Below, piece by piece: positions 5,812 through 18,227 of a stretch of 64,000 nucleotides of DNA. The DNA comes from Fuerstiella sp. (GTDB lineage: Bacteria; Planctomycetota; Planctomycetia; Planctomycetales; Planctomycetaceae). The stretch lies in contig JAKVAZ010000004.1 of the NCBI GenBank assembly GCA_022447225.1, positions 1 to 64,000 on the forward strand, in the 5' to 3' direction. The stretch's first letter is position 1; each line of letters begins with the position of its first letter. Under the pieces are notes generated by a model. The model saw only the letters and a list, made by a program, of their open reading frames with translations. It did not search any database and had not been told where the DNA came from. The translations under genes and the position numbers were made by a program.

Positions 5812-7755
5812 TTGACCCGACAAAATCTGATGATTCTCGGAATTGCGGCACTCACGCTGCCGAACTGTGCGGCCGATCAACTCGGTTCGGCAGTTCGGTC
5901 GGCAATCATAAAGGTCAGCCCCTCTGTCGTACGTATTCAGATCGTCGGCACTCCGGATCGTTCCGGAAAAATTGCTTCGCGGGTGACCACGGGAGTTGTG
6001 GTCTCCGCTGATGGTGAAATTATCTCAAGCAGCTTTTGTTTTGGCAGTGAAATTTCTGCTGTATTTGTCAGTACCGGCGATGGCCGGCGCCACAGTGCCG
6101 AGGTCGTGGCAACAGATCATGTCCGTAAATTGACACTGCTTCGAACGAGTGCGCGGCAACTCATTCCCCCTGCCTGGGCTTTGAAAAATCCCTCTGTCGG
6201 TGCGTGGGCAGTTGCAGTCGGAAGATTCTATGACTCTTCGAAACCGTCTGCATCCCTGGGAGTGATCAGTGCTGTCAACAGAATTCACGGCCTGGCGATC
6301 CAGACAGACGCAAAGGTCTCACCGATCAACTACGGCGGGCCATTACTCGCCATGGATGGACGTGTGTCCGGGATTCTTGTTCCACTGGCTCCGGGAAATA
6401 CGTCGACCGGCGTTGCTGCCGGTGTACAGTGGTACGATTCAGGAATTGGATTCGCTATTCCGTCCGAAGATGTTCTGGACAGTGCTCAACGTCTGCGACC
6501 GGGCATCGACCGCAGGCATGGATTCCTAGGAATCAACCTTGCTACACCTAACCCACTGTCTGCAAAGACTGAGGTGAAAAATATACATCCAGGTTCACCG
6601 GCTGATGTCGGAGGCATAAAAGCTGGAGATCAGATCCTGTCCGTAAATGGTCACAAACTCCAACGTGCGGGAATATTCCAAAGTATTCTCAGGAGCGCCT
6701 GGGCAGGAAATTCAATGTCATTCATCGTGCGTCGTGGCAGCGAAGAAAGACACATCGATGTGACACTGTCAGACGAGGTCTCCGTCCCCGAACGCGGGTG
6801 GCTGGGAGTGCTGGCATTGACAACGGCAGGAAATGAGGAGGAGCAGGGGGTTGTGGTGGGAGTTCCCGGCAACTCACCCGCTTCCGCTGCCGGAATGCCG
6901 GCCCGCTGCATCGTGACTCAGGTGGATGGAATTGAAGTCGGTCACCTTAATCAATTCCGAGATGTTCTGAAGGAAGTCACCGCAGGATCAACACATCAAC
7001 TTACCTTTGCTTTGGCCGATCGGTCAGGAAAAATTCGGACAGTATCGATTGTGGCCGAAAGCACGCAGGAGCGGGACGTTTCACTGCTGACACAGGAACT
7101 TGCTGCCATTCAGACGATTGTACCGGCTGATGCCACTGCACCTGACTGGACACAATCCGTTGTCAGTCTCAGCCAGGGCGGACAGGTTTGGCTTCTGGGA
7201 CCGAAAAAACGCCTGGTCGGAGTTGAACCGGGTGTCGTGATCATGCTTCATGACGGACCACCGGTAACAGAAACACTCGTACAGGACTGGCGCAGAGTGT
7301 GTCAGCAGTACCAAATGGTACTGGCGGTCGTATATCATGACGATGCAGTTCCAATGGATACGTTCAACGTACCCGGAAGTGTGATGGCCGTTGTAGGGAA
7401 TTTTGGAACAATTGATCCGGATCGAATCGCTCTCCTCACACGTCAGTCTCACGCAGAGTTTGTCACTCAGCTGTTTCTGGATCCGCGTCTGCCCCAAATG
7501 CGACATGCGATATTTCTTGGATGCCGACCACTGATCGTCGGAGTGTCCCTTCAAAACGTCTACCAAAAGAATTCGTCATTACTTTTCTTTCGTAACGATA
7601 GCGACAAACAGTCCCAAGCACTGTCGACAGCTGCCGTTGCAGCACTGCAGAACGCCGGAGCCACCGTTGTCGTGAGTCCTTCTTCAGCTGACATTCCAGG
7701 TATTGAGCTGGCCGATGAGATTGCAGGCTGGATGCTGCTGCAGACACTCCGATAG
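5812..7755 (+). CDS. HtrA-like two-PDZ protein lacking the protease catalytic triad
   Basis: The 647-aa protein starts at TTG 5812, which gives a usable signal peptide (Arg at position 3, hydrophobic core 7-16). An ATG six codons on would remove the positive charge. Residues 28-225 follow the trypsin/HtrA fold, but the catalytic residues are gone. The usual His segment reads SSSFCF (about 72-77), the Asp position is Lys or Leu (RKLTLL, 105-110), and the GNSGGP serine is tyrosine (INYGGPLL, Tyr174). Two PDZ domains follow, about 237-318 and 329-412, each with a GSPA/NSPA carboxylate-binding neighbourhood. Residues 420-647 are an extra domain I do not recognise. It is probably a periplasmic binding or scaffold protein, not a protease. 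uppP begins 11 bases downstream and is likely co-transcribed. Confidence 0.85.
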   Translation: MTRQNLMILGIAALTLPNCAADQLGSAVRSAIIKVSPSVVRIQIVGTPDRSGKIASRVTTGVVVSADGEIISSSFCFGSEISAVFVSTGDGRRHSAEVVATDHVRKLTLLRTSARQLIPPAWALKNPSVGAWAVAVGRFYDSSKPSASLGVISAVNRIHGLAIQTDAKVSPINYGGPLLAMDGRVSGILVPLAPGNTSTGVAAGVQWYDSGIGFAIPSEDVLDSAQRLRPGIDRRHGFLGINLATPNPLSAKTEVKNIHPGSPADVGGIKAGDQILSVNGHKLQRAGIFQSILRSAWAGNSMSFIVRRGSEERHIDVTLSDEVSVPERGWLGVLALTTAGNEEEQGVVVGVPGNSPASAAGMPARCIVTQVDGIEVGHLNQFRDVLKEVTAGSTHQLTFALADRSGKIRTVSIVAESTQERDVSLLTQELAAIQTIVPADATAPDWTQSVVSLSQGGQVWLLGPKKRLVGVEPGVVIMLHDGPPVTETLVQDWRRVCQQYQMVLAVVYHDDAVPMDTFNVPGSVMAVVGNFGTIDPDRIALLTRQSHAEFVTQLFLDPRLPQMRHAIFLGCRPLIVGVSLQNVYQKNSSLLFFRNDSDKQSQALSTAAVAALQNAGATVVVSPSSADIPGIELADEIAGWMLLQTLR

Positions 7756-7766
7756 GGTCCTCAACA

Positions 7767-8663
7767 ATGATGGAATACTTTCATGCAGCGATACTGGGGA
7801 TCGTGCAGGGCATTGCGGAATTCCTCCCTGTCAGCTCTTCCGGACATCTTGTGATCGTGGATGAACTGCTCAAACACTATAGTGGGACGACAATTCCAAC
7901 AGAATCAGTGACGATGTCCGTCTCGCTGCACTTTGGCACACTACTTTCAATTTTGGTTGTTTATCGCAGCGAATTGTCAGGAATTGTAAAGAACAAGCAC
8001 CTGATGGGGCTCATTGTACTGGCAACGATTCCAGTTGGCATGGCGGGCATATTTCTGCATGATCGGGTTGATTCACTGTTTAACACACCGTTACCGGCAG
8101 GTGGAGCATTGATTGTAACGGCCGTCCTGCTTGTGGCAGGACGACAACTTCAACGTCAGCAGCAGCAAACAAGACAACTCAGCGTTTCAACAGCCGGGAT
8201 TGTCGGCCTGTTTCAGGCAATTGCTATCGTTCCAGGTATTTCACGATCCGGCAGTACGATTGCCGCCGGACTGGCCTGCGGACTGAATCGCGAACAGGCA
8301 GCAAGGTTTTCATTTCTGATCGCGGTCCCCGCTGTCGCCGGCGCAGCCTTCGTTAAAGCCAAAAGCCTGGCTACCGGAGAAACCTCCGTCGAAGCGAATC
8401 TGCTTCCAGTGGCTCTGGGAACTCTGCTGGCATTCCTGGTCGGAATAGCAACACTGTCCTGGCTGTTGACAATTGTGACGGCTGATCGTCTGCACTGGTT
8501 CGCCGGCTACTGTGCGCTGGCCGGAATAACCACGATCCTGTGGCAGCTGTCGCTTACGTCATCAGATGGACATGAATCTGCGTCCCATCCCGTACGAAAC
8601 CACGTTGCACAAAAAGCATTGCATTCTGTCAGACAGTCAGACCGGACGTTGCTGTTCCCCTGA
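7767..8663 (+). CDS. uppP: Undecaprenyl-diphosphatase
   Basis: This 298-aa polytopic inner-membrane enzyme removes a phosphate from undecaprenyl diphosphate so the lipid carrier can be reused for peptidoglycan and surface polysaccharides. Both BacA/UppP signatures are present: GIAEFLPVSSSGH near residues 15-27 (catalytic Glu and SSSGH) and PGISRSGSTI near 153-162 (catalytic Arg). About seven to eight hydrophobic segments are visible. The last roughly 30 residues form a hydrophilic tail. The gene follows the HtrA-like gene after 11 bases. Its last 27 bases overlap the end of the convergent giant gene on the other strand. Confidence 0.95.
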   Translation: MMEYFHAAILGIVQGIAEFLPVSSSGHLVIVDELLKHYSGTTIPTESVTMSVSLHFGTLLSILVVYRSELSGIVKNKHLMGLIVLATIPVGMAGIFLHDRVDSLFNTPLPAGGALIVTAVLLVAGRQLQRQQQQTRQLSVSTAGIVGLFQAIAIVPGISRSGSTIAAGLACGLNREQAARFSFLIAVPAVAGAAFVKAKSLATGETSVEANLLPVALGTLLAFLVGIATLSWLLTIVTADRLHWFAGYCALAGITTILWQLSLTSSDGHESASHPVRNHVAQKALHSVRQSDRTLLFP

Positions 8664-11600
8664 TACAGAGGAATCGCTGTCGGAAGCTGACTCTGTGTCT
8701 GAACGTGTTTGAGAAGTATCGGATGAGTCCCGGACGCCGGTAATTGCAGCTTCTCCCTCCCGATACCGAAAGATCCGATGGCCTCCACTAACGATCACAA
8801 CAAAGCACAACCCAATCACCGGAAGCAGCTGAGGCCAGGGTAGTCGACGCCGACTGCGAGTCATTATCACCGCCGGAGCAATGACTTCGAACAGCTGAAC
8901 ATCGTCTGAAACTGTTAATTGTCGGTCTTCAAGAAATCCGGATACCGTTTTAGCCGTCCGGACATCTCTGGTTTGGGTGATTGCATCATCGGGCAAATGT
9001 GAAACCGAAAATGTGGCCAGTACCTGTGCCACCAGCTGTGCCGTAGTCACCCGGAGCAACGAGTGATCCACAGACCATACCTGATCAGCAGGTGAATGCA
9101 TCGTGAGAAACACCTTCTGCCGGATTGCAGCCAGTGAAGGAACCAGAAGACGCAGTTCACGAGGAAAAACACCAATACCTGGCCGACGGATCAACCAGTG
9201 AATCCTCAGTCGCTGTACTGCCGACTGACGTTTGACTTCAATAATGTTCGGATCCGCACCACAAGGCAATTCAACATCGTCCAGTCGACAGCTAACAATC
9301 TTCAAGCCCTGAGGAATCACACAACGAGACTCATCAGCCTCTCCAAATTCCACCAGAATATCAGTTATCCCGGACACGATGTCTGATGCCGGATATAATG
9401 TGGTGACTGCTACACTTTGCTCCGGCTGCCGGACGATACTGATGGCTGCGGAAGGTCTCGTCGGGGGAATCAAGTCAATACGAACGGAATTATCCGGGGC
9501 ATCATAATGGTCTGGCCCACCAAGCTGACTCCATCCGGAAAGAGGTAAGATCGGACTATCACTCTCCATTGACTCCGTCATCCAGGTGACACGAGACCGG
9601 TCGGATGTTTTTGAACTCATCTGCTGTCCGAAAACCAGCACACTGTCGATCGGAACCTTCGGTTCCACAATTGGCAGAGGAATTCGTCGTGCCGTTTCGG
9701 TGGCAATAACCGAAACCTCCGTGAGTATCAGCATAGCCTGTTGTCCAGGCGTCAGTCGCACTGCAGGCAGTTCGGCACCTTCGAGTGTCAACGGCGTAAC
9801 GGTTTCATCAATGATCCACTTAGCCGAATTATGTCTGAGTGAATCGGGCAGTCGAATTCTTCCAAACCATCCCTGGTCGCCGGCCCTGATCCGGATGCCA
9901 ACATCAGCGCCCCGATTCAAGGCATGATCCTGAGTGAGTACCAGCATTCTCGCTGCAGTCAATTGCTGTCTGCGAACGTTAAGTTTAAGAACCCCGTCTT
10001 CATCGACGACCGTTGCTCGTTCAGCATCAATATTCAGTGTTGGTCCGTCTGCAGTTTCCAGAGTCACCGTTGCCTCGCTGGTTGATAAGAGTGACACCGT
10101 GGATTTCAGCACTTCGGTGGCCTCCAGCCGAACCGGAGTCACCTGGAGTTTTCCCCCCGTCGGCACCGGCATCGTCCCCTCAAAAACCAACTCAAAGCTG
10201 CCTCGCGTGCCTTCTCGAAAAGAAATCAGCAGCAACCCGTCGTGGTATGACCAGGAACGCAGGCGATTGGCATCGCCTGACGATACATCTACCTGATCAA
10301 CGAGAAATTCCGACTGAACCTGAATGCACTGTCGGAATATTTCCGGACCTGTCGTTTGAATGTCACAGTGGCACGACCAGCTGATTTCGTCCACATCAGC
10401 AGTGATCCTGCTGGTCAACTGAGCCGTTTGGCGTGTGGTGCGCATTCTCAGCTTCAGATGTATGTCATCGGGAATCGATCCGATTTCATACACCTCGTCG
10501 GTCCGTGTCAATTCAAGTGATTTCCGTTCTTCCTCGCCGGGATGCGATTCAATCAGCTTCTGTCCCGAAATCGCAACGGCTTCAACTTCGAGCGGATTCG
10601 AAGCTTCTACCCCAATAAGAATTCGCCGAACACTGCATCTTTCAGGGGCGTGCAGTGCGGCTGCCGGAATCAGTCTGTCAACGGTCATCTCTGCATTTTT
10701 CGCTTCCCAGGACACGTGAAAATCCGCAAGCTGGTCCGGACTTCCCTGAACAACCTGACGCCCGTCAATCCGGGCCAATTGCAGCGGAACACCCTCTCTA
10801 CTCAGAACATCAACAGGCTCATACCCGGGTACAGGCGATAGAATGAGTTCTGTTGGTAGTTGCTGCCGGGACGTCAGTTGATAACGACAAATCAGCTTTG
10901 TCTCTGAGTAGGAAAGTTCCGCTCGACAAATCACTGTTGCCAGACATGCGACTTCCGAAGATTTAGACTGAGAGTTTCGCGTTTCGATGCTGATATCAAG
11001 TGAACCACGATTGTATTGTGGCGGAAATTCGACCAGTCCCGATGCTTCCGGAACAGCCAGCATCCCGTATGGCTCAACCAGACCGGCTGTCAGTACCTGA
11101 TCATCGATTGTTTCCAACGTCACCTGGCTGCGGACTGAGAACGGCAGGGGCACACGAATGTTATAGTGTCCCGGAGCCGGTCTAACATTCGTGCGAAGAG
11201 TATATTTGATGGTGTGGCGGTACCAGCCGTTTTCAGCGGTTGTGGATTCGTTGACATCGGACTGTACCGGGATGACCAGCTGTGGATTGCCTCGCGGCCC
11301 ACGAGACGGAGAAACCTGTACGTCATCCAGTGAACAATCCGTCAACGTTGCGGATGCTGTGGGCAGGCTGAATGTTGATGCATGACCAGTCAAAGGACTG
11401 GCAACGGTCGCGTTGACCGTGATTTCGGCCCCACCTTCCTGTTCGACACGTACATGAGCCTCGACACCCAGAACACGGACATCTGCCTCCACAACACCCT
11501 CTACTGCCGGCAGAATATTCCTGCGAACATAAACAAAGGGCAGGGTCGTTTGTACTTCTTCATTCACCAGAACCGGTGGCAAGTCCGCAGGTAACGGTGT

Positions 11601-14600
11601 CTGACCGGTCAGCAGCAGCGCAATAGCAGCAGAGGCCGCTGAAGGTATCGAAACCACAGCACGATGCCGGTCCCCTTCCGGCAGTACCTGATTGCCGGGA
11701 TTGTTCGCCGGTTGCCAACACTTACGAATCAGAAGACAAACCGCTAACCCAAAATTCGATCCAAACAACAACGAGGAACCCAGCGGTCCTGCGAATACTG
11801 AAAGCACGGTTCCTGTCACCATCAGAACTGCGACCGTTCGCAGCCGCAGCCGTGCAAAAAATCGACTTCCAATAACAACACACCAGAACACCAGAATCGC
11901 CCCGCAGTACGTCGACCGACGTGACACCATACTCACGTGGATCTGCCCGTTTTCAGTTGAACAAAAAGTTCTCGCCGCCCCCGACTGTTCTGCCAGACGC
12001 CAACGCATCATAAAATCCCTGACTGGTGTGTTCTCTGTCACTATTTGGCACCAGTCGTGAACTCCCAAATTCGAACCATCTGAAATACCGGACGTTGATA
12101 AAGACGATGCATAAACGTCCGGCGGCAACTGGACGATATGTGCCAGATCGACGTTCACATCAGACTCAAACGTGGGCAGGGTAATGGTACCGGAACGAAT
12201 GACTCTTCCAGTCTCTGTCAGGGGACTCGTCCAAAGGATACGGACACCTGTAGTTGTTTGATTCTTCGGCAGTAAGATCCGTGTGACAGATTCCTTAACC
12301 GGATAGATGACCGGCTGATTATCAATGTATATTCTGATATCGGTGGCTTCTGCCCACTTAACAGCCATGTATTCCGCTTCAACTGATCCCGTTCGACTGA
12401 CGACCAAGTCTGCAAAGCACTCACATTTTTCACCGTCAGGTTCAGGCGACGCAGCGAACCAGGCCGTTCCGCGAACACCAAGAAACGGCTTCTTGTCACT
12501 TGTACGGGAAAACCGGATTCTAAACTGACTCCCGAACTTCGGGACCATCACCGGATTGCCTGGTTGAAGAACAAGACTTTCAAAATCACTACTGTCCGGC
12601 TCTCCGGTGACAAGCGCAATGTTTGCAAACTCGCCTGCGGTGGCTGTGCTACTCCGAACAGTCAGTGACACTCCGGAATCATTTGGCAGTCGAGGGATGG
12701 CAGCAAATTCAGCACTGGCAAGCGGACGAACGGCACGCAGATTAAAGGTATGCACCGAGTCATCGGTTCGCGTAGCCGGAAAACTCAGCAACCATTCCTG
12801 CCATTGGTCATTCGTGAGTCTTCCCGTTTTGGACAAGATACCGGTCGTGGCCGGGCCGTCCGACTTAAGATCAATTCCTTTAGGAAACACCAAAACAACG
12901 GCCCCGGGCAGCTGCTCAGTTGGATCCAGTCGAATCTGCAGATTTTCAATCAATTGAATTTCCGTTAACTGCAACTCGTAGTTCAGCACTGCATCCTGAA
13001 TGACAGTCTGCGACACCACTGGATCGGCTGACACCGGCAGCAGACGATCTGTCTTTGTCATCTGCAGTTCTTCCGGCTCGGAGATGTCAAGCATTGTCCA
13101 GGCGAACTCATTCTGCAGCTCTGCCGCAATATCCGTGACAACCTTCATCGGACCGTTTGTCGCAAACGGGACGGCGTCTGAATCCAGTATCCAGTTACCC
13201 ACAGTCGGATATTCGTCATTGACCAAAACCGGAAGCGACGACTTCAGTGGTGTAACAGCCTGTGTGGAGCGAAACTCAATTCTTAACCACGCTGGCTGGA
13301 AGGATGTGGCCGCAGAGCGGAATTCGATCTGTAATTGATCGCTCGTTCTATCGTCGGACGGTCGGACGCGCAGGTAGACCGGCAAATTTGTCCGTATATC
13401 GTCCACGCTGACCGGGCGCCACGGTCCTGAGATATCCCACTCAGCTTTGTAAACATCATCGTTATCGCTGCATGGTTCCAACTCAGCATACACCGTGACA
13501 AGCTCAGGCGTTTCCGGATGCCGATGAATCAGCAGTTTCTGGCGGAGGGGTGCGGTTGACGGTAGCACATGAATGGCCCCCGATGCGTCAACATCCAACT
13601 GTCGCAATTCAATGACCTGTTCACCAGCGGAGTTAAAACTGACATCCTGCTGATACAGTCCTTCAAGATCGAGGCGGCGTACGGCAAGTCCCCGAGTAAC
13701 TACTAACCGAAGTCCTGTTGACCTCAGCGGCAGTACAGGTCCCGTGTCTTCCGATAACTGCTGCTGTGCCTTCGTCAAAAGCGGAAGAACCAGACCTCCG
13801 TGGTGTTCCGCATCCGAAGAACCATGAATAACAACCGTCCCGCCGGCCCTGAGTCCCGAAACAATCAATTGGCGACTCGACTCCCCGGACAGTCTCCAGA
13901 TGTGACGACGCCCCGATTGACTGGCGACATCTGTAATGTGGCAATTGCCACTGAACGTTACAGTTGCGGATGAATCATCCAGTTCCGGAGGGACCACGAA
14001 AGTCCATTCCGCAAATATGGTTTTACCGGCAACAGTGAGCGTCGTATCAACCGCAACAGCAGACATCTCGTATGAATCCGCGGCCGTTGACACAGGCTGG
14101 CAAAGAAAGGTTACTGTGTGGCTGCTGCGAGGAGAAAGAAACCACGTCAATCTACCTGCATTTGATTCTGACCACACGACTGCGTTTGGACTGGTGATGT
14201 GAATATCGGCGGCTGTCTCAACCTGTAACTCAGTCACCGTCGCGGGTGGCAACTGCAATTCGAACAGAATTCCGTCTGAGTTCCGGACACCCCTGGCAGA
14301 CCATGTAGCTTCAAGCTCCGTAATCTCACCATCCGGCAGCAATGACAAACGACCATCGGACAGTGCCGCGGAAGCAACAGGACGTCCATCGACCTGGAAT
14401 TCAAGTTCACTCAGATTCGTTTGCCCGAGAACACGGGAATTGACATCCTTTGACGCGTTAAGTTGCAGGTGAAGCGTACCTCTGATCAGTGAGTTATCAG
14501 TCAGTACAGCGCTATACCGGGCCGCAGCGGCTGCCGTAACAGATGGCAGCTCGATGCCGGTCCGCACCTGTCCATTCGAAGACAAGCGATGCAGATTGGC

Positions 14601-14900
14601 TCGATAAAACAGGACATACTCTCCGGAATCAACGGCCCGCTGAATCGTGTCAGCTGTAACCGGGACAATCTGCAACGTATCGGGGTTCGTTGTATCGGAT
14701 CCATCACTGACCACCCGAATGCTTAACGGACTCCTCTGAACAGCAGAGGGATCGTCACCTACCGAATCTGCAGACTCCAAACCGGCAGCCTGGGTAATGT
14801 CACCTAAACTGGAAACATTGTCCTGAGCTGTCGACGGTACTCCCCATGACAGAGCAATACAAATCAGGCAGCCTGAGGTAATGCCGGAAGCAATTTTCAT
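8637..14900 (-). CDS. Giant exported beta-rich protein with internal membrane region
   Basis: This 2087-aa protein is of no family I recognise. It starts with a signal peptide (hydrophobic core about residues 8-24, Ala-Gln cleavage region near 26). A long region rich in short beta strands, Thr, Ser and Val follows to about residue 980, with several stretches reading like repeated extracellular beta-sandwich units. Residues 985-1060 contain two or three transmembrane segments, and another hydrophobic stretch near 1090-1100 leads into a second beta-rich half. A final transmembrane helix lies near 2015-2032, followed by an acidic Ser/Asp/Thr tail. It looks like two exported units joined through a membrane region. 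It lies 51 bases downstream of the 1091-aa gene, which has a similar style, so the two probably form one operon and perhaps one envelope structure. The function is unknown. Confidence 0.8.
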   Translation of the reverse strand: MKIASGITSGCLICIALSWGVPSTAQDNVSSLGDITQAAGLESADSVGDDPSAVQRSPLSIRVVSDGSDTTNPDTLQIVPVTADTIQRAVDSGEYVLFYRANLHRLSSNGQVRTGIELPSVTAAAAARYSAVLTDNSLIRGTLHLQLNASKDVNSRVLGQTNLSELEFQVDGRPVASAALSDGRLSLLPDGEITELEATWSARGVRNSDGILFELQLPPATVTELQVETAADIHITSPNAVVWSESNAGRLTWFLSPRSSHTVTFLCQPVSTAADSYEMSAVAVDTTLTVAGKTIFAEWTFVVPPELDDSSATVTFSGNCHITDVASQSGRRHIWRLSGESSRQLIVSGLRAGGTVVIHGSSDAEHHGGLVLPLLTKAQQQLSEDTGPVLPLRSTGLRLVVTRGLAVRRLDLEGLYQQDVSFNSAGEQVIELRQLDVDASGAIHVLPSTAPLRQKLLIHRHPETPELVTVYAELEPCSDNDDVYKAEWDISGPWRPVSVDDIRTNLPVYLRVRPSDDRTSDQLQIEFRSAATSFQPAWLRIEFRSTQAVTPLKSSLPVLVNDEYPTVGNWILDSDAVPFATNGPMKVVTDIAAELQNEFAWTMLDISEPEELQMTKTDRLLPVSADPVVSQTVIQDAVLNYELQLTEIQLIENLQIRLDPTEQLPGAVVLVFPKGIDLKSDGPATTGILSKTGRLTNDQWQEWLLSFPATRTDDSVHTFNLRAVRPLASAEFAAIPRLPNDSGVSLTVRSSTATAGEFANIALVTGEPDSSDFESLVLQPGNPVMVPKFGSQFRIRFSRTSDKKPFLGVRGTAWFAASPEPDGEKCECFADLVVSRTGSVEAEYMAVKWAEATDIRIYIDNQPVIYPVKESVTRILLPKNQTTTGVRILWTSPLTETGRVIRSGTITLPTFESDVNVDLAHIVQLPPDVYASSLSTSGISDGSNLGVHDWCQIVTENTPVRDFMMRWRLAEQSGAARTFCSTENGQIHVSMVSRRSTYCGAILVFWCVVIGSRFFARLRLRTVAVLMVTGTVLSVFAGPLGSSLLFGSNFGLAVCLLIRKCWQPANNPGNQVLPEGDRHRAVVSIPSAASAAIALLLTGQTPLPADLPPVLVNEEVQTTLPFVYVRRNILPAVEGVVEADVRVLGVEAHVRVEQEGGAEITVNATVASPLTGHASTFSLPTASATLTDCSLDDVQVSPSRGPRGNPQLVIPVQSDVNESTTAENGWYRHTIKYTLRTNVRPAPGHYNIRVPLPFSVRSQVTLETIDDQVLTAGLVEPYGMLAVPEASGLVEFPPQYNRGSLDISIETRNSQSKSSEVACLATVICRAELSYSETKLICRYQLTSRQQLPTELILSPVPGYEPVDVLSREGVPLQLARIDGRQVVQGSPDQLADFHVSWEAKNAEMTVDRLIPAAALHAPERCSVRRILIGVEASNPLEVEAVAISGQKLIESHPGEEERKSLELTRTDEVYEIGSIPDDIHLKLRMRTTRQTAQLTSRITADVDEISWSCHCDIQTTGPEIFRQCIQVQSEFLVDQVDVSSGDANRLRSWSYHDGLLLISFREGTRGSFELVFEGTMPVPTGGKLQVTPVRLEATEVLKSTVSLLSTSEATVTLETADGPTLNIDAERATVVDEDGVLKLNVRRQQLTAARMLVLTQDHALNRGADVGIRIRAGDQGWFGRIRLPDSLRHNSAKWIIDETVTPLTLEGAELPAVRLTPGQQAMLILTEVSVIATETARRIPLPIVEPKVPIDSVLVFGQQMSSKTSDRSRVTWMTESMESDSPILPLSGWSQLGGPDHYDAPDNSVRIDLIPPTRPSAAISIVRQPEQSVAVTTLYPASDIVSGITDILVEFGEADESRCVIPQGLKIVSCRLDDVELPCGADPNIIEVKRQSAVQRLRIHWLIRRPGIGVFPRELRLLVPSLAAIRQKVFLTMHSPADQVWSVDHSLLRVTTAQLVAQVLATFSVSHLPDDAITQTRDVRTAKTVSGFLEDRQLTVSDDVQLFEVIAPAVIMTRSRRRLPWPQLLPVIGLCFVVIVSGGHRIFRYREGEAAITGVRDSSDTSQTRSDTESASDSDSSVSGEQQRPV

Positions 14901-14951: not shown

Positions 14952-17900
14952 CTAGGGAACAGCAGGTTCGGGCTCTGAAGTTGGAGCCGCAGGAACCAGT
15001 TCACGCGATGCCGCCGGCTTCGAAGGAATACGCGAAACTGCAGAAAATATGGACTTTCCACGTCGCCGGCGGGGGCGCGACCTTCCGGACGGCACCATTA
15101 ACCGACGAATGCCCCAGGCAGTTGAAGCAAGGACAACAGCTGTCAAAACCGGCATCAGCAATGCCAGAGTTTGTTGGGGCAGAACCACCCACATGACAGC
15201 GCAGACTGGAATCATAACCGCAGACAACAGCTGCAGATGCCCGCGGAGAGTTACAAGCGTGACATAGAACAGAACACCCAGACCGGCTGACACGACCCAC
15301 GCCACTGCCCGGGAATAAATCATGACTCTGAGAGTCCGGAGTCTCGGTCCACCGATAAACGCCAGTGAGGCCTGCTGCCTGAAATAAGCATCGTTCAGCT
15401 GTCGGTGGACATGCATGCGTACCTCATCAGAAAACCCGGCAAAAAGTGATTCCACCGAGTCCTCTCCGCGATCGGTCGCAGCCGACAGGAGAACGTCCGC
15501 TATTCCCTGAGGCAAAACTGACTGTTGGTGTGTATCAAGCGAAATCAGACGGTTGTCATCGGATGTACCCACCAACCAGACAGTTGTTAACCAGCCAGGC
15601 GCATCATGAACTCGGGCATATCTGGTCTCCTGTCTCGACAGAAGATGGTGATGCGGGTCTCTGGGAGTCCTGCAGACCAGACTGATTCGCACCGGACCAT
15701 CTGAGAATTCCTGAGCGACAGAAACCAGTCTCAATTCAACTGAATCTGTCCGGTCCGCGCTGATGCGCGGGACATTAACTTCGATTCCGTCTACCCGAGC
15801 ATTCACGCCGACATTCACCGGAACCTGAAAGATTACTGCTTCGGGTGGTTTTTCGTAGATGACAGTGGTAGTCGTTGTCACGTTCGCCGAACCAATATAC
15901 GTCTGGACCAGGCAAATCAAAGGTTCATGAATCTGCCGATGGAGAAGTGGCTCAGGAATGCGCAACCTTACGTATCTGCGAATTTCCTTCGTGGACCATG
16001 CCGTCCGAAAGTCCGAAGAGAACTGCCGATAAAGTGAATCGTCCTGCACCACACTCAAAACTTTCGGTGCATTTGTACCAATTATTATCGAATCGACACC
16101 ACTGGAGGGCAGCACCAGAGGAAGCTGATAGTCATCGGATTCCGCGGCAGGCGTCCAGAAATATTTAATGGTCGCTTTGTGCTCCCCGCGGATTGGTTCC
16201 GGAAGCTGCCACGTGATTTGATCGCCATCCACATCTCCCGGTGGTTCCGGAGCTGCGCGACCAATGAGCTGCAGTACCGGATCGATTCCGTCGGGTGCGG
16301 TGAATGTCAGCTTTTGAAGATCGCGGTGACGAACGTTGATCGTCAGTTCTGTACAGACATAAATACTGTCCTGGTTTGCTTCCAGTGCGACGACGGCCCG
16401 CGAACTGACTTCCTGAGTCTGGCGTAACTGACGGATTCGGACAGAACGACCTGATTCGTTGACTCGCCATACGGTAACACGCTGCAGGTTTTCCTGTCCC
16501 GGCAACTGCCGAGGCGGCACAAACGAAAATGCGTTATTGCCGAGCGTATCCGTCATTGACAGTGAATAGGTATCAGATTCGGTCAGAGACACAATTGTTG
16601 GATGAGCATCGGACGCTGTGATGTCGGGAAGCGAAAATGTAACGTCGGTTTCATTGGAGCCTTCGTCCAGACCTCGAAAGGCTTTAAACTCCACGAGAAA
16701 CTGTCCTGACTGGACATTCCCCAGCTGAAGCTGGATTTCATCTTCTGTCTGCTCATACCGGATCCTGCTGCGTTTCCCGTCATCTTCCATCAGGAAGATG
16801 GATCCGGTTTCAATTTGCCATCCATCTTGAAGATGCTGTTTCCAGTCAATTCGCAATTCGTCGAGTGATCCCAGACTGACATTCACAGGAAATTTTGCCA
16901 ACAGTCGCAGAGTTCGGACATCGGTTGAGAATTCCAGACGCGGTGCCACAGCGAAACTCGCTTCAACAGTATTGACGTCCAGTCTCAGTCGGGCTTCCGT
17001 GGAGAGCAGATCGAAAGCGATGGCTTCATTACGCTGATCTGAATTTGACTCAACTCGCGTCCGACGTGTATGTCCGGCCGGAACGATATCCACTTCCAGA
17101 CCTCGTGGAATTCGGATCTCAACCTTCGCTGACTGCTGAGTGATCCCGACAACGTCGGGAACAGACACAGAAATCCGGGGCGTGGTATCATTCAGTGCAA
17201 GTTCAAAATGCAGGTCTATACGTCCACGAACGGGCCTGGCAAACACGATATCCGCAGTGGATCCCGATTCAGTCATCGAAACATTGTCCGTCCGTACAAT
17301 GAGGGTGCTGTCTTCATCCCGCGCAGTAACATCGACTCCGCCATAGCCAGGTGGCAACCGGACCTGGAGTCGATCTGTCGCACCCTCCGTAATATCGATT
17401 GTCTGATCACAGACAAGTACCGGTGTACTGCTGGAGAGATCCAGCACCATTAATGCCGGGGTGGGTGCGCTCATCACCGTGACGTTGTCTCCACTCAGGT
17501 CCGACGATTGCCAGCTGATTTCAGTTTCGGACTGAAGCCCCCAGAATTTGACCGTCATCGGCTGACCGAATGAAGTGGATCTTCGTGAATGAGCAGCATT
17601 GTCAATTATACGTTCGACGGACTGATCGAATGTCAGTTCCAGTTCTGACGTCATCGCATCGGGCAGGGACAGTTTCAATCGATGTCGATCCTTTTCCTGA
17701 TCCCGAACTTCTCCGATCAGATCCAGTGACAGTTCGTGCCGTCCGCGTCCTTTCAGAAGCCATTGATGACTGTCGGAGGCACTGGAAGGACTCCCAAGGA
17801 ATCGCGATTCTAAATCCAGATTTTCCGGACCGTGTACAGCACTGGTGGGGACCCAGGATCCCAGCCCCACATCAACACGAACCCATTCGTCGTCAGCGTG

Positions 17901-18227
17901 AACCTTAATTTTCAGATCCACATGGATCTTCGCAAGTCCGTCCTGAACTGTTCCGAACGCATCAAGATCAGCAAACTCGAAGCTCCGGACACTTAGCTGC
18001 GCAGTTACAGACTCCAGGATACGGTCAACTTTTTCTGACGGAATCAGATCATCAAGAGGGACTGTTCTGCCATCATCCCGACGTATCAGGATCTGGCCCT
18101 GAGGGAGTTCATCCGGTGCCGTCGATGGTTCCTGACCATACAGCACTCCAGCAATACTGAACGTCAGAACAACGGGTAGTATCCCGCGGCTGACAGCAGG
18201 TCGCTGAACAATATATGGACGATTCAT
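14952..18227 (-). CDS. Large exported beta-rich protein with C-terminal membrane anchors
   Basis: This 1091-aa protein has an N-terminal signal peptide (hydrophobic core about residues 15-29, cleavage near YGQE). A long beta-strand-rich region follows with no catalytic motif I can identify. Near the C terminus there are about three transmembrane segments (roughly 975-995 and 1003-1045). The last 40 residues are basic and then Pro/Ala/Glu-rich, probably cytoplasmic. An early motif, QGQILIRRDDGRTVPLDDLI around residues 43-62, looks like a short conserved header. The neighbouring 2087-aa protein has the same plan (exported beta-rich region, late membrane anchors). The gene follows the inositol-monophosphatase gene after 118 bases. 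Function unknown. Confidence 0.8.
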   Translation of the reverse strand: MNRPYIVQRPAVSRGILPVVLTFSIAGVLYGQEPSTAPDELPQGQILIRRDDGRTVPLDDLIPSEKVDRILESVTAQLSVRSFEFADLDAFGTVQDGLAKIHVDLKIKVHADDEWVRVDVGLGSWVPTSAVHGPENLDLESRFLGSPSSASDSHQWLLKGRGRHELSLDLIGEVRDQEKDRHRLKLSLPDAMTSELELTFDQSVERIIDNAAHSRRSTSFGQPMTVKFWGLQSETEISWQSSDLSGDNVTVMSAPTPALMVLDLSSSTPVLVCDQTIDITEGATDRLQVRLPPGYGGVDVTARDEDSTLIVRTDNVSMTESGSTADIVFARPVRGRIDLHFELALNDTTPRISVSVPDVVGITQQSAKVEIRIPRGLEVDIVPAGHTRRTRVESNSDQRNEAIAFDLLSTEARLRLDVNTVEASFAVAPRLEFSTDVRTLRLLAKFPVNVSLGSLDELRIDWKQHLQDGWQIETGSIFLMEDDGKRSRIRYEQTEDEIQLQLGNVQSGQFLVEFKAFRGLDEGSNETDVTFSLPDITASDAHPTIVSLTESDTYSLSMTDTLGNNAFSFVPPRQLPGQENLQRVTVWRVNESGRSVRIRQLRQTQEVSSRAVVALEANQDSIYVCTELTINVRHRDLQKLTFTAPDGIDPVLQLIGRAAPEPPGDVDGDQITWQLPEPIRGEHKATIKYFWTPAAESDDYQLPLVLPSSGVDSIIIGTNAPKVLSVVQDDSLYRQFSSDFRTAWSTKEIRRYVRLRIPEPLLHRQIHEPLICLVQTYIGSANVTTTTTVIYEKPPEAVIFQVPVNVGVNARVDGIEVNVPRISADRTDSVELRLVSVAQEFSDGPVRISLVCRTPRDPHHHLLSRQETRYARVHDAPGWLTTVWLVGTSDDNRLISLDTHQQSVLPQGIADVLLSAATDRGEDSVESLFAGFSDEVRMHVHRQLNDAYFRQQASLAFIGGPRLRTLRVMIYSRAVAWVVSAGLGVLFYVTLVTLRGHLQLLSAVMIPVCAVMWVVLPQQTLALLMPVLTAVVLASTAWGIRRLMVPSGRSRPRRRRGKSIFSAVSRIPSKPAASRELVPAAPTSEPEPAVP

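Follow-up and report, generated by a model that had tools for sequence, protein, structure and literature searches.

HtrA proteases are textbook homo-oligomers, and the locus described here raises the question of what an HtrA-like protein does for its cell once all three residues of the catalytic triad have been lost. The window, meaning the whole stretch of 64,000 nucleotides analysed from a contig of Fuerstiella sp., contains an open reading frame for such a protein, hereafter gene C, exactly where the first-pass annotation had placed it. The features of gene C and of its downstream neighbour were as follows.

5812..7755, plus strand: gene C, HtrA-family pseudoprotease of 647 aa; open reading frame with Pfam Trypsin_2 plus PDZ matches
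5917..6462, plus strand: dead trypsin-like domain, aa about 36-217; Trypsin_2 at E 1.4e-19, model resembling DegQ/DegS
6034..6036, plus strand: Phe75, in the column of the catalytic His; F, W or Y (aromatic) in 66/68 orthologues, His in none
6127..6129, plus strand: Lys106 at the catalytic Asp column; Asp in 0/68 orthologues
6289..6345, plus strand: L1 loop (aa 160-178); its Tyr174, codon 6331-6333, takes the catalytic Ser position and is Tyr in 68/68
6421..6462, plus strand: L2 loop, aa 204-217, with the C-specific signature WYDSGIGFA; Tyr208 and Asp209 in 68/68
6508..6777, plus strand: PDZ1, aa about 233-322; carboxylate-binding loop GFLGI retained, Gly237 and Gly240 invariant
6778..7065, plus strand: PDZ2, aa about 323-418; loop GWLGV retained, Gly332 invariant
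7147..7752, plus strand: C-terminal domain, aa 446-647, alpha/beta-hydrolase-like by family profile against the PDB; elbow column occupied by Gln545
7767..8663, plus strand: uppP/bacA, 11 bp downstream of gene C; BacA at E 1.1e-69, a recurrent neighbour of gene C

Gene C starts at a TTG codon and its product has an exported-looking N-terminus. The same TTG start was kept in Fuerstiella sp. ALOHA_ZT_14 (L037, 73% identity), the closest named relative, where internal codon 7 is ATA versus ATG in the window. Gene C and uppP are probably co-transcribed. Further along the window, on the minus strand, are two genes encoding proteins of 2087 aa (8637-14900) and 1091 aa (14952-18227) with no Pfam match at E 0.01.

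Loss of the catalytic triad and retention of the fold

Matches to Trypsin_2 (aa 60-188, 71.7 bits against a curated cut-off of 27.6) and, over two stretches, to PDZ_2 (63.5 bits against 27) bore out the earlier description of a protease fold with two PDZ domains, and the binding loops of both PDZ domains were found to be kept together with their invariant Gly residues. A DegP-like match was obtained by sequence alone at E 1.2e-18, and gene C fell below the cut-offs of the curated HtrA subfamilies in NCBIfam (TIGR02037 Do, DegS and HhoA), the best score being 139.9 versus 416.2 bits.

A 35-row alignment was made of residues 1-421 of the gene C product, its L037 orthologue and 33 HtrA proteins encoded on IMG/VR contigs. 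His, Asp and Ser occupied columns 75, 106 and 174, respectively, in 90% or more of the sequences, and the corresponding residues of gene C were Phe75, Lys106 and Tyr174. The first-pass annotation had proposed the loss of all three catalytic residues, and the alignment supported this for Tyr174 at the Ser position and for the SSSFCF stretch, the Phe of which occupies the His position, while its "Lys or Leu" for the Asp position was narrowed to Lys106 and Leu was discarded. The His-Asp-Ser triad of an active protease was likewise missing from every orthologue found. In addition, the oxyanion-hole position 193 is Ile172 in gene C, and Gly was present there in 0 of 68 orthologues. Relocated catalytic residues were sought over aa 30-234, where no His or Cys reached 30% conservation among the 68 orthologues, and a displaced triad in the core of gene C was ruled out on this basis.

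An AlphaFold2 monomer prediction of residues 1-421 gave a mean pLDDT of 79, with most of the trypsin core between 85 and 98 and low confidence over PDZ2 residues 323-345; the alignment behind it includes active HtrAs, which biases the model towards the HtrA fold. It replaced a model made from the window and L037 sequences alone (pLDDT 30), the alignment with IMG/VR HtrA relatives being used instead. The model matched DegQ, DegP and DegS in Foldseek at E 1e-29 to 1e-22 and gave VIA Z scores of 28-30 (DegQ 29.9, DegS 28) covering the protease and PDZ domains, so that the modelled fold is that of a trypsin-like DegQ/DegS relative. Gene C was confirmed as an HtrA-like protein that lacks the catalytic triad and retains the trypsin-like fold.

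Conservation of the dead site and the added C-terminal domain

Gene C was compared with its L037 orthologue (73% identical), and dN/dS was about 0.13 over the trypsin domain and lowest, at about 0.08, over the L1/L2 loops. These loops also had the lowest entropy in the protein (about 0.63 bits, compared with 1.6-2.4 bits for most other regions), and the dead site is therefore the most protected part of protein C. A sequencing error or a recent pseudogene was ruled out by the dN/dS of about 0.13 and by the changes being common to all orthologues. It is scarcely conceivable that gene C is a functionless, decaying relic. Such a reading could draw on the lost triad and on the separation of C from its usual partners in the source genome (see below), but it is opposed by the dN/dS values of both regions and by the conservation of C over the phylum. 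The earlier reading of a pseudoenzyme agrees with the loss of the whole triad, the retained fold and this strong selection. Monophyly of the C trypsin core received moderate support (0.78), and this was only moderate because the trypsin domain is short. The L1/L2 loops would form a surface for binding or contact, not an active site, and the PDZ domains would recruit substrates or the C-termini of partners.

The added C-terminal domain that had been noted at first pass was delimited to aa 446-647 and searched separately. A profile of 36 such domains matched alpha/beta-hydrolase esterases in the PDB (LC-Est1C, E 1.1e-18), and many single members matched alpha/beta-hydrolase (ABH) Pfam families, although the window copy had no match to these families. 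Of the 46 aligned members in which the nucleophile-elbow column is occupied, four have Ser (L062, L061, L063 and L072); the window copy has Gln545, and Gly, Ala, Glu or Lys is found in most others. Judged from these profiles, the domain has an alpha/beta-hydrolase fold with the nucleophile lost in most members, including the window copy, and together with the lost triad this makes most of these members doubly degenerate. The hydrolase may be active in some lineages that keep the elbow Ser. Outside class Planctomycetia gene C is usually about 340-420 aa and mostly without this domain, so that the domain is mainly an addition of the class (plus L112) and neither a part of ancestral C nor the core of C function.

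A different catalytic activity was considered, either from a site rebuilt around Tyr174, Tyr208 and Asp209 or from the hydrolase domain. The invariance of these three residues in all 68 orthologues and the elbow Ser of the four members would be in keeping with it, but neither His nor Cys is conserved anywhere in the C core, the elbow is degenerate in the window copy and in most other members, and the hydrolase domain is mostly missing outside the class. We regard it as very improbable.

The three-gene HtrA locus

Where family profiles were used, they were clean ones built from alignments A1-A4. Of 59 related genomes, 49 had a gene C orthologue, and in a sample of 195 genomes from across Planctomycetota a family profile detected it in 44 with a score of 280 bits or higher. 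The checked genomes without gene C had best matches of at most 207 bits, and those inspected were ordinary HtrAs with GNSGG and TNxHV motifs. No relatives of gene C were found in a viral contig collection, and the Fuerstiella relative was the only match in the contig search.

In most relatives gene C closes a tandem array of three HtrA-like genes, and the order A-B-C was found in most loci within and beyond class Planctomycetia, often with 4-bp stop/start overlaps, that between B and C being common. Paralogue A (about 600 aa) has an intact triad, with Asp in 52/52, Ser in 52/52 and His in 51/52 sequences (one gap). Paralogue B (about 345 aa) has Ser in 0/52 (Ala in 23, Gly in 12, others), mostly Ser or Asn at the His position, and Gly193 in 52/52. 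In five loci (L099, L100, L101, L104 and L106), which belong to families f32, f37 and f59, one continuous open reading frame encodes both of these paralogues, with A N-terminal and B C-terminal; fusions always joined A with B, and C was fused in none. Upstream of A lies gene X, with an NPCBM domain, often preceded by the conserved genes Y and Z; neighbour families were limited to those confirmed after clustering of neighbouring ORFs. At L085 (8576-12335, minus strand) the genes upstream of A are X with its NPCBM domain and a gene for a 615-aa coiled, acidic protein, and these recur beside the trio. The operon has split in the source genome, where X, A and B are together on contig C1 (L085) and gene C is with uppP on contig C4, which holds the window.

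Immediately downstream of C, uppP was found in the window, in L008/L037 and, within the class, at eight further loci (L038, L043, L054, L057, L059, L063, L065 and L113). The first-pass annotation had suggested that C may regulate the neighbouring UppP or envelope stress. The recurrent adjacency is in keeping with UppP as a putative target, but the constant partners are A and B, which lie directly upstream of C in most relatives, although on another contig in the source genome. A direct effect of C on UppP is possible. That its role is to regulate UppP, and with it lipid-carrier recycling and peptidoglycan, appears improbable, as most C loci have no adjoining uppP while A and B adjoin C in most, and protein C carries no sequence evidence of membrane or UppP contact.

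Counted as genomes and uncorrected for phylogeny, A was present in 49, B in 50 and C in 49 of the 59 relatives, in identical sets except for G048, and nine of the 59 were without A, B and C. G048 (89% complete) had X and B with neither A nor C detected, the sole clear exception to co-occurrence of the trio. Within its locus (L195, 4552-6796) X is followed directly by B and A is absent between them. In the phylum sample (n=195), B was present in 43 genomes from 11 families, all 43 with C, and C occurred without B only in G106, whose contig stops a short way upstream of C. Both genes were also retained together where they are unlinked, as in the single-contig genomes G134 and G224, in G030 and in the source genome. 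Presence and absence follow families, so the independent co-occurrence events are fewer than the genome count, and the many genomes of the phylum without the trio indicate that it is not essential to planctomycete life.

HtrA proteins can work as chaperones, and C might act as a stand-alone envelope chaperone or peptide-binding scaffold that takes up misfolded proteins or C-termini independently of A and B, its operon reflecting co-regulation only. The retained PDZ loops and the separation of C from A and B in the source genome and several others are consistent with this, but C accompanies B almost without exception, and A likewise in the class sample, even where the genes are unlinked, and constraint is strongest in the dead-site loops rather than in the PDZ domains. 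A stand-alone role is considered unlikely.

Proposed partnership with protease A and comparison with known systems

The trio is nearly always kept together, which suggests that the dead copies may help to control or build the working protease. Our preferred explanation, held with moderate confidence, is that C is a non-catalytic subunit or allosteric activator of protease A, acting with B in the cell envelope. C would be exported to the envelope and form a physical complex with A and B, in which C and B would activate, gate or target A. B retains Gly193 without the Ser; C has neither the triad nor Gly193. A more extreme arrangement is a tentative possibility, namely an HtrA hetero-oligomer for which A, B and C are all obligatory, at its limit a 1:1:1 heterotrimer that has just one active site. 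The two dead paralogues would then be dedicated structural and allosteric subunits, and the assembly, if true, would parallel among HtrA proteins the homo- to hetero-oligomer transition of ClpP/ClpR or the proteasome. Trp132 of C lies at what we take to be a trimer-contact position (Phe278 in HTRA1, Tyr163 in DegP), and Trp was found there in 61/68 C and 34/52 A sequences, B having mostly Arg or others. As evidence for a trimer interface this position is mixed.

The pairing of C with an active A resembles that of MamO with the active MamE in magnetotactic bacteria. Inactive MamO is required, without catalysis of its own, for MamE proteolysis, which it activates although physical contact was undetected, and crystallography of MamO led to the argument that its non-Gly residue at 193 keeps the oxyanion hole from forming (PMC4794232). 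In both systems an HtrA-type pseudoprotease is clustered with an active HtrA paralogue and has a residue other than Gly at position 193. The trio differs in having two dead paralogues and no tie to magnetosomes, and C has PDZ domains and a hydrolase-like C-terminus where MamO has a TauE transporter. MamO also has a di-histidine metal site, whereas no His in C reaches the 30% level over aa 30-234. Gene C had no match to the MamO NCBIfam model at E up to 1 and scored 75 bits against the MamE cut-off of 800. In mixed trimers of HTRA1, an inactive S328A subunit restores the activity of its partner (PMC11252331). C resembles DegP, DegQ, DegS and HTRA1 in fold, domain order and PDZ loops, but these are active homo-oligomers and C lacks the triad and Gly193.

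The Csp proteins, subtilases with CspB as the active member of CspBAC, offer a second parallel. In Clostridioides, CspB, CspA and CspC are three clustered paralogues, two of them pseudoproteases, with a fused CspBA (PMC6464247). One active and two dead paralogues are thus clustered in both cases and an active/pseudo fusion occurs in both (CspBA and the A-B fusion here), although CspBAC is subtilisin-like, unrelated in sequence, lacks PDZ domains and serves spore germination. Streptomyces lividans, like the trio, has three HtrA paralogues, with interdependent functions and a shared complex proposed without proof (PMC5157995); unlike the trio they were described as proteases, without a family-wide pseudoprotease pattern.

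The pairing of an HtrA pseudoprotease with an active paralogue is already known, and here it takes the form of a three-part set spread over much of a phylum. A literature search found no description of the trio and covered few subscription papers, and it is weak evidence of absence. The numerous HtrA/PDZ genes of planctomycetes have been noted and left unexplained (PMC6411480), and the trio would account for part of them. If the preferred explanation is true, the trio would be a natural system for testing how an HtrA protease is turned on or off by its dead subunits, and whether HtrA trimers evolved into hetero-complexes.

Other HtrA-like genes were observed during the searches. At least 80 IMG/VR contigs (L115-L194) encode HtrA-like proteases with mostly intact triad columns, and contig C242 of G106 carries a further cluster of several HtrA-like genes (about 6597-11995). 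Another tandem HtrA-like triple is located in G062 (L114, 3787-7237), and one of its genes combines an aromatic residue in the His column with the Ser of NYGNSGG, a possible intermediate or parallel case.
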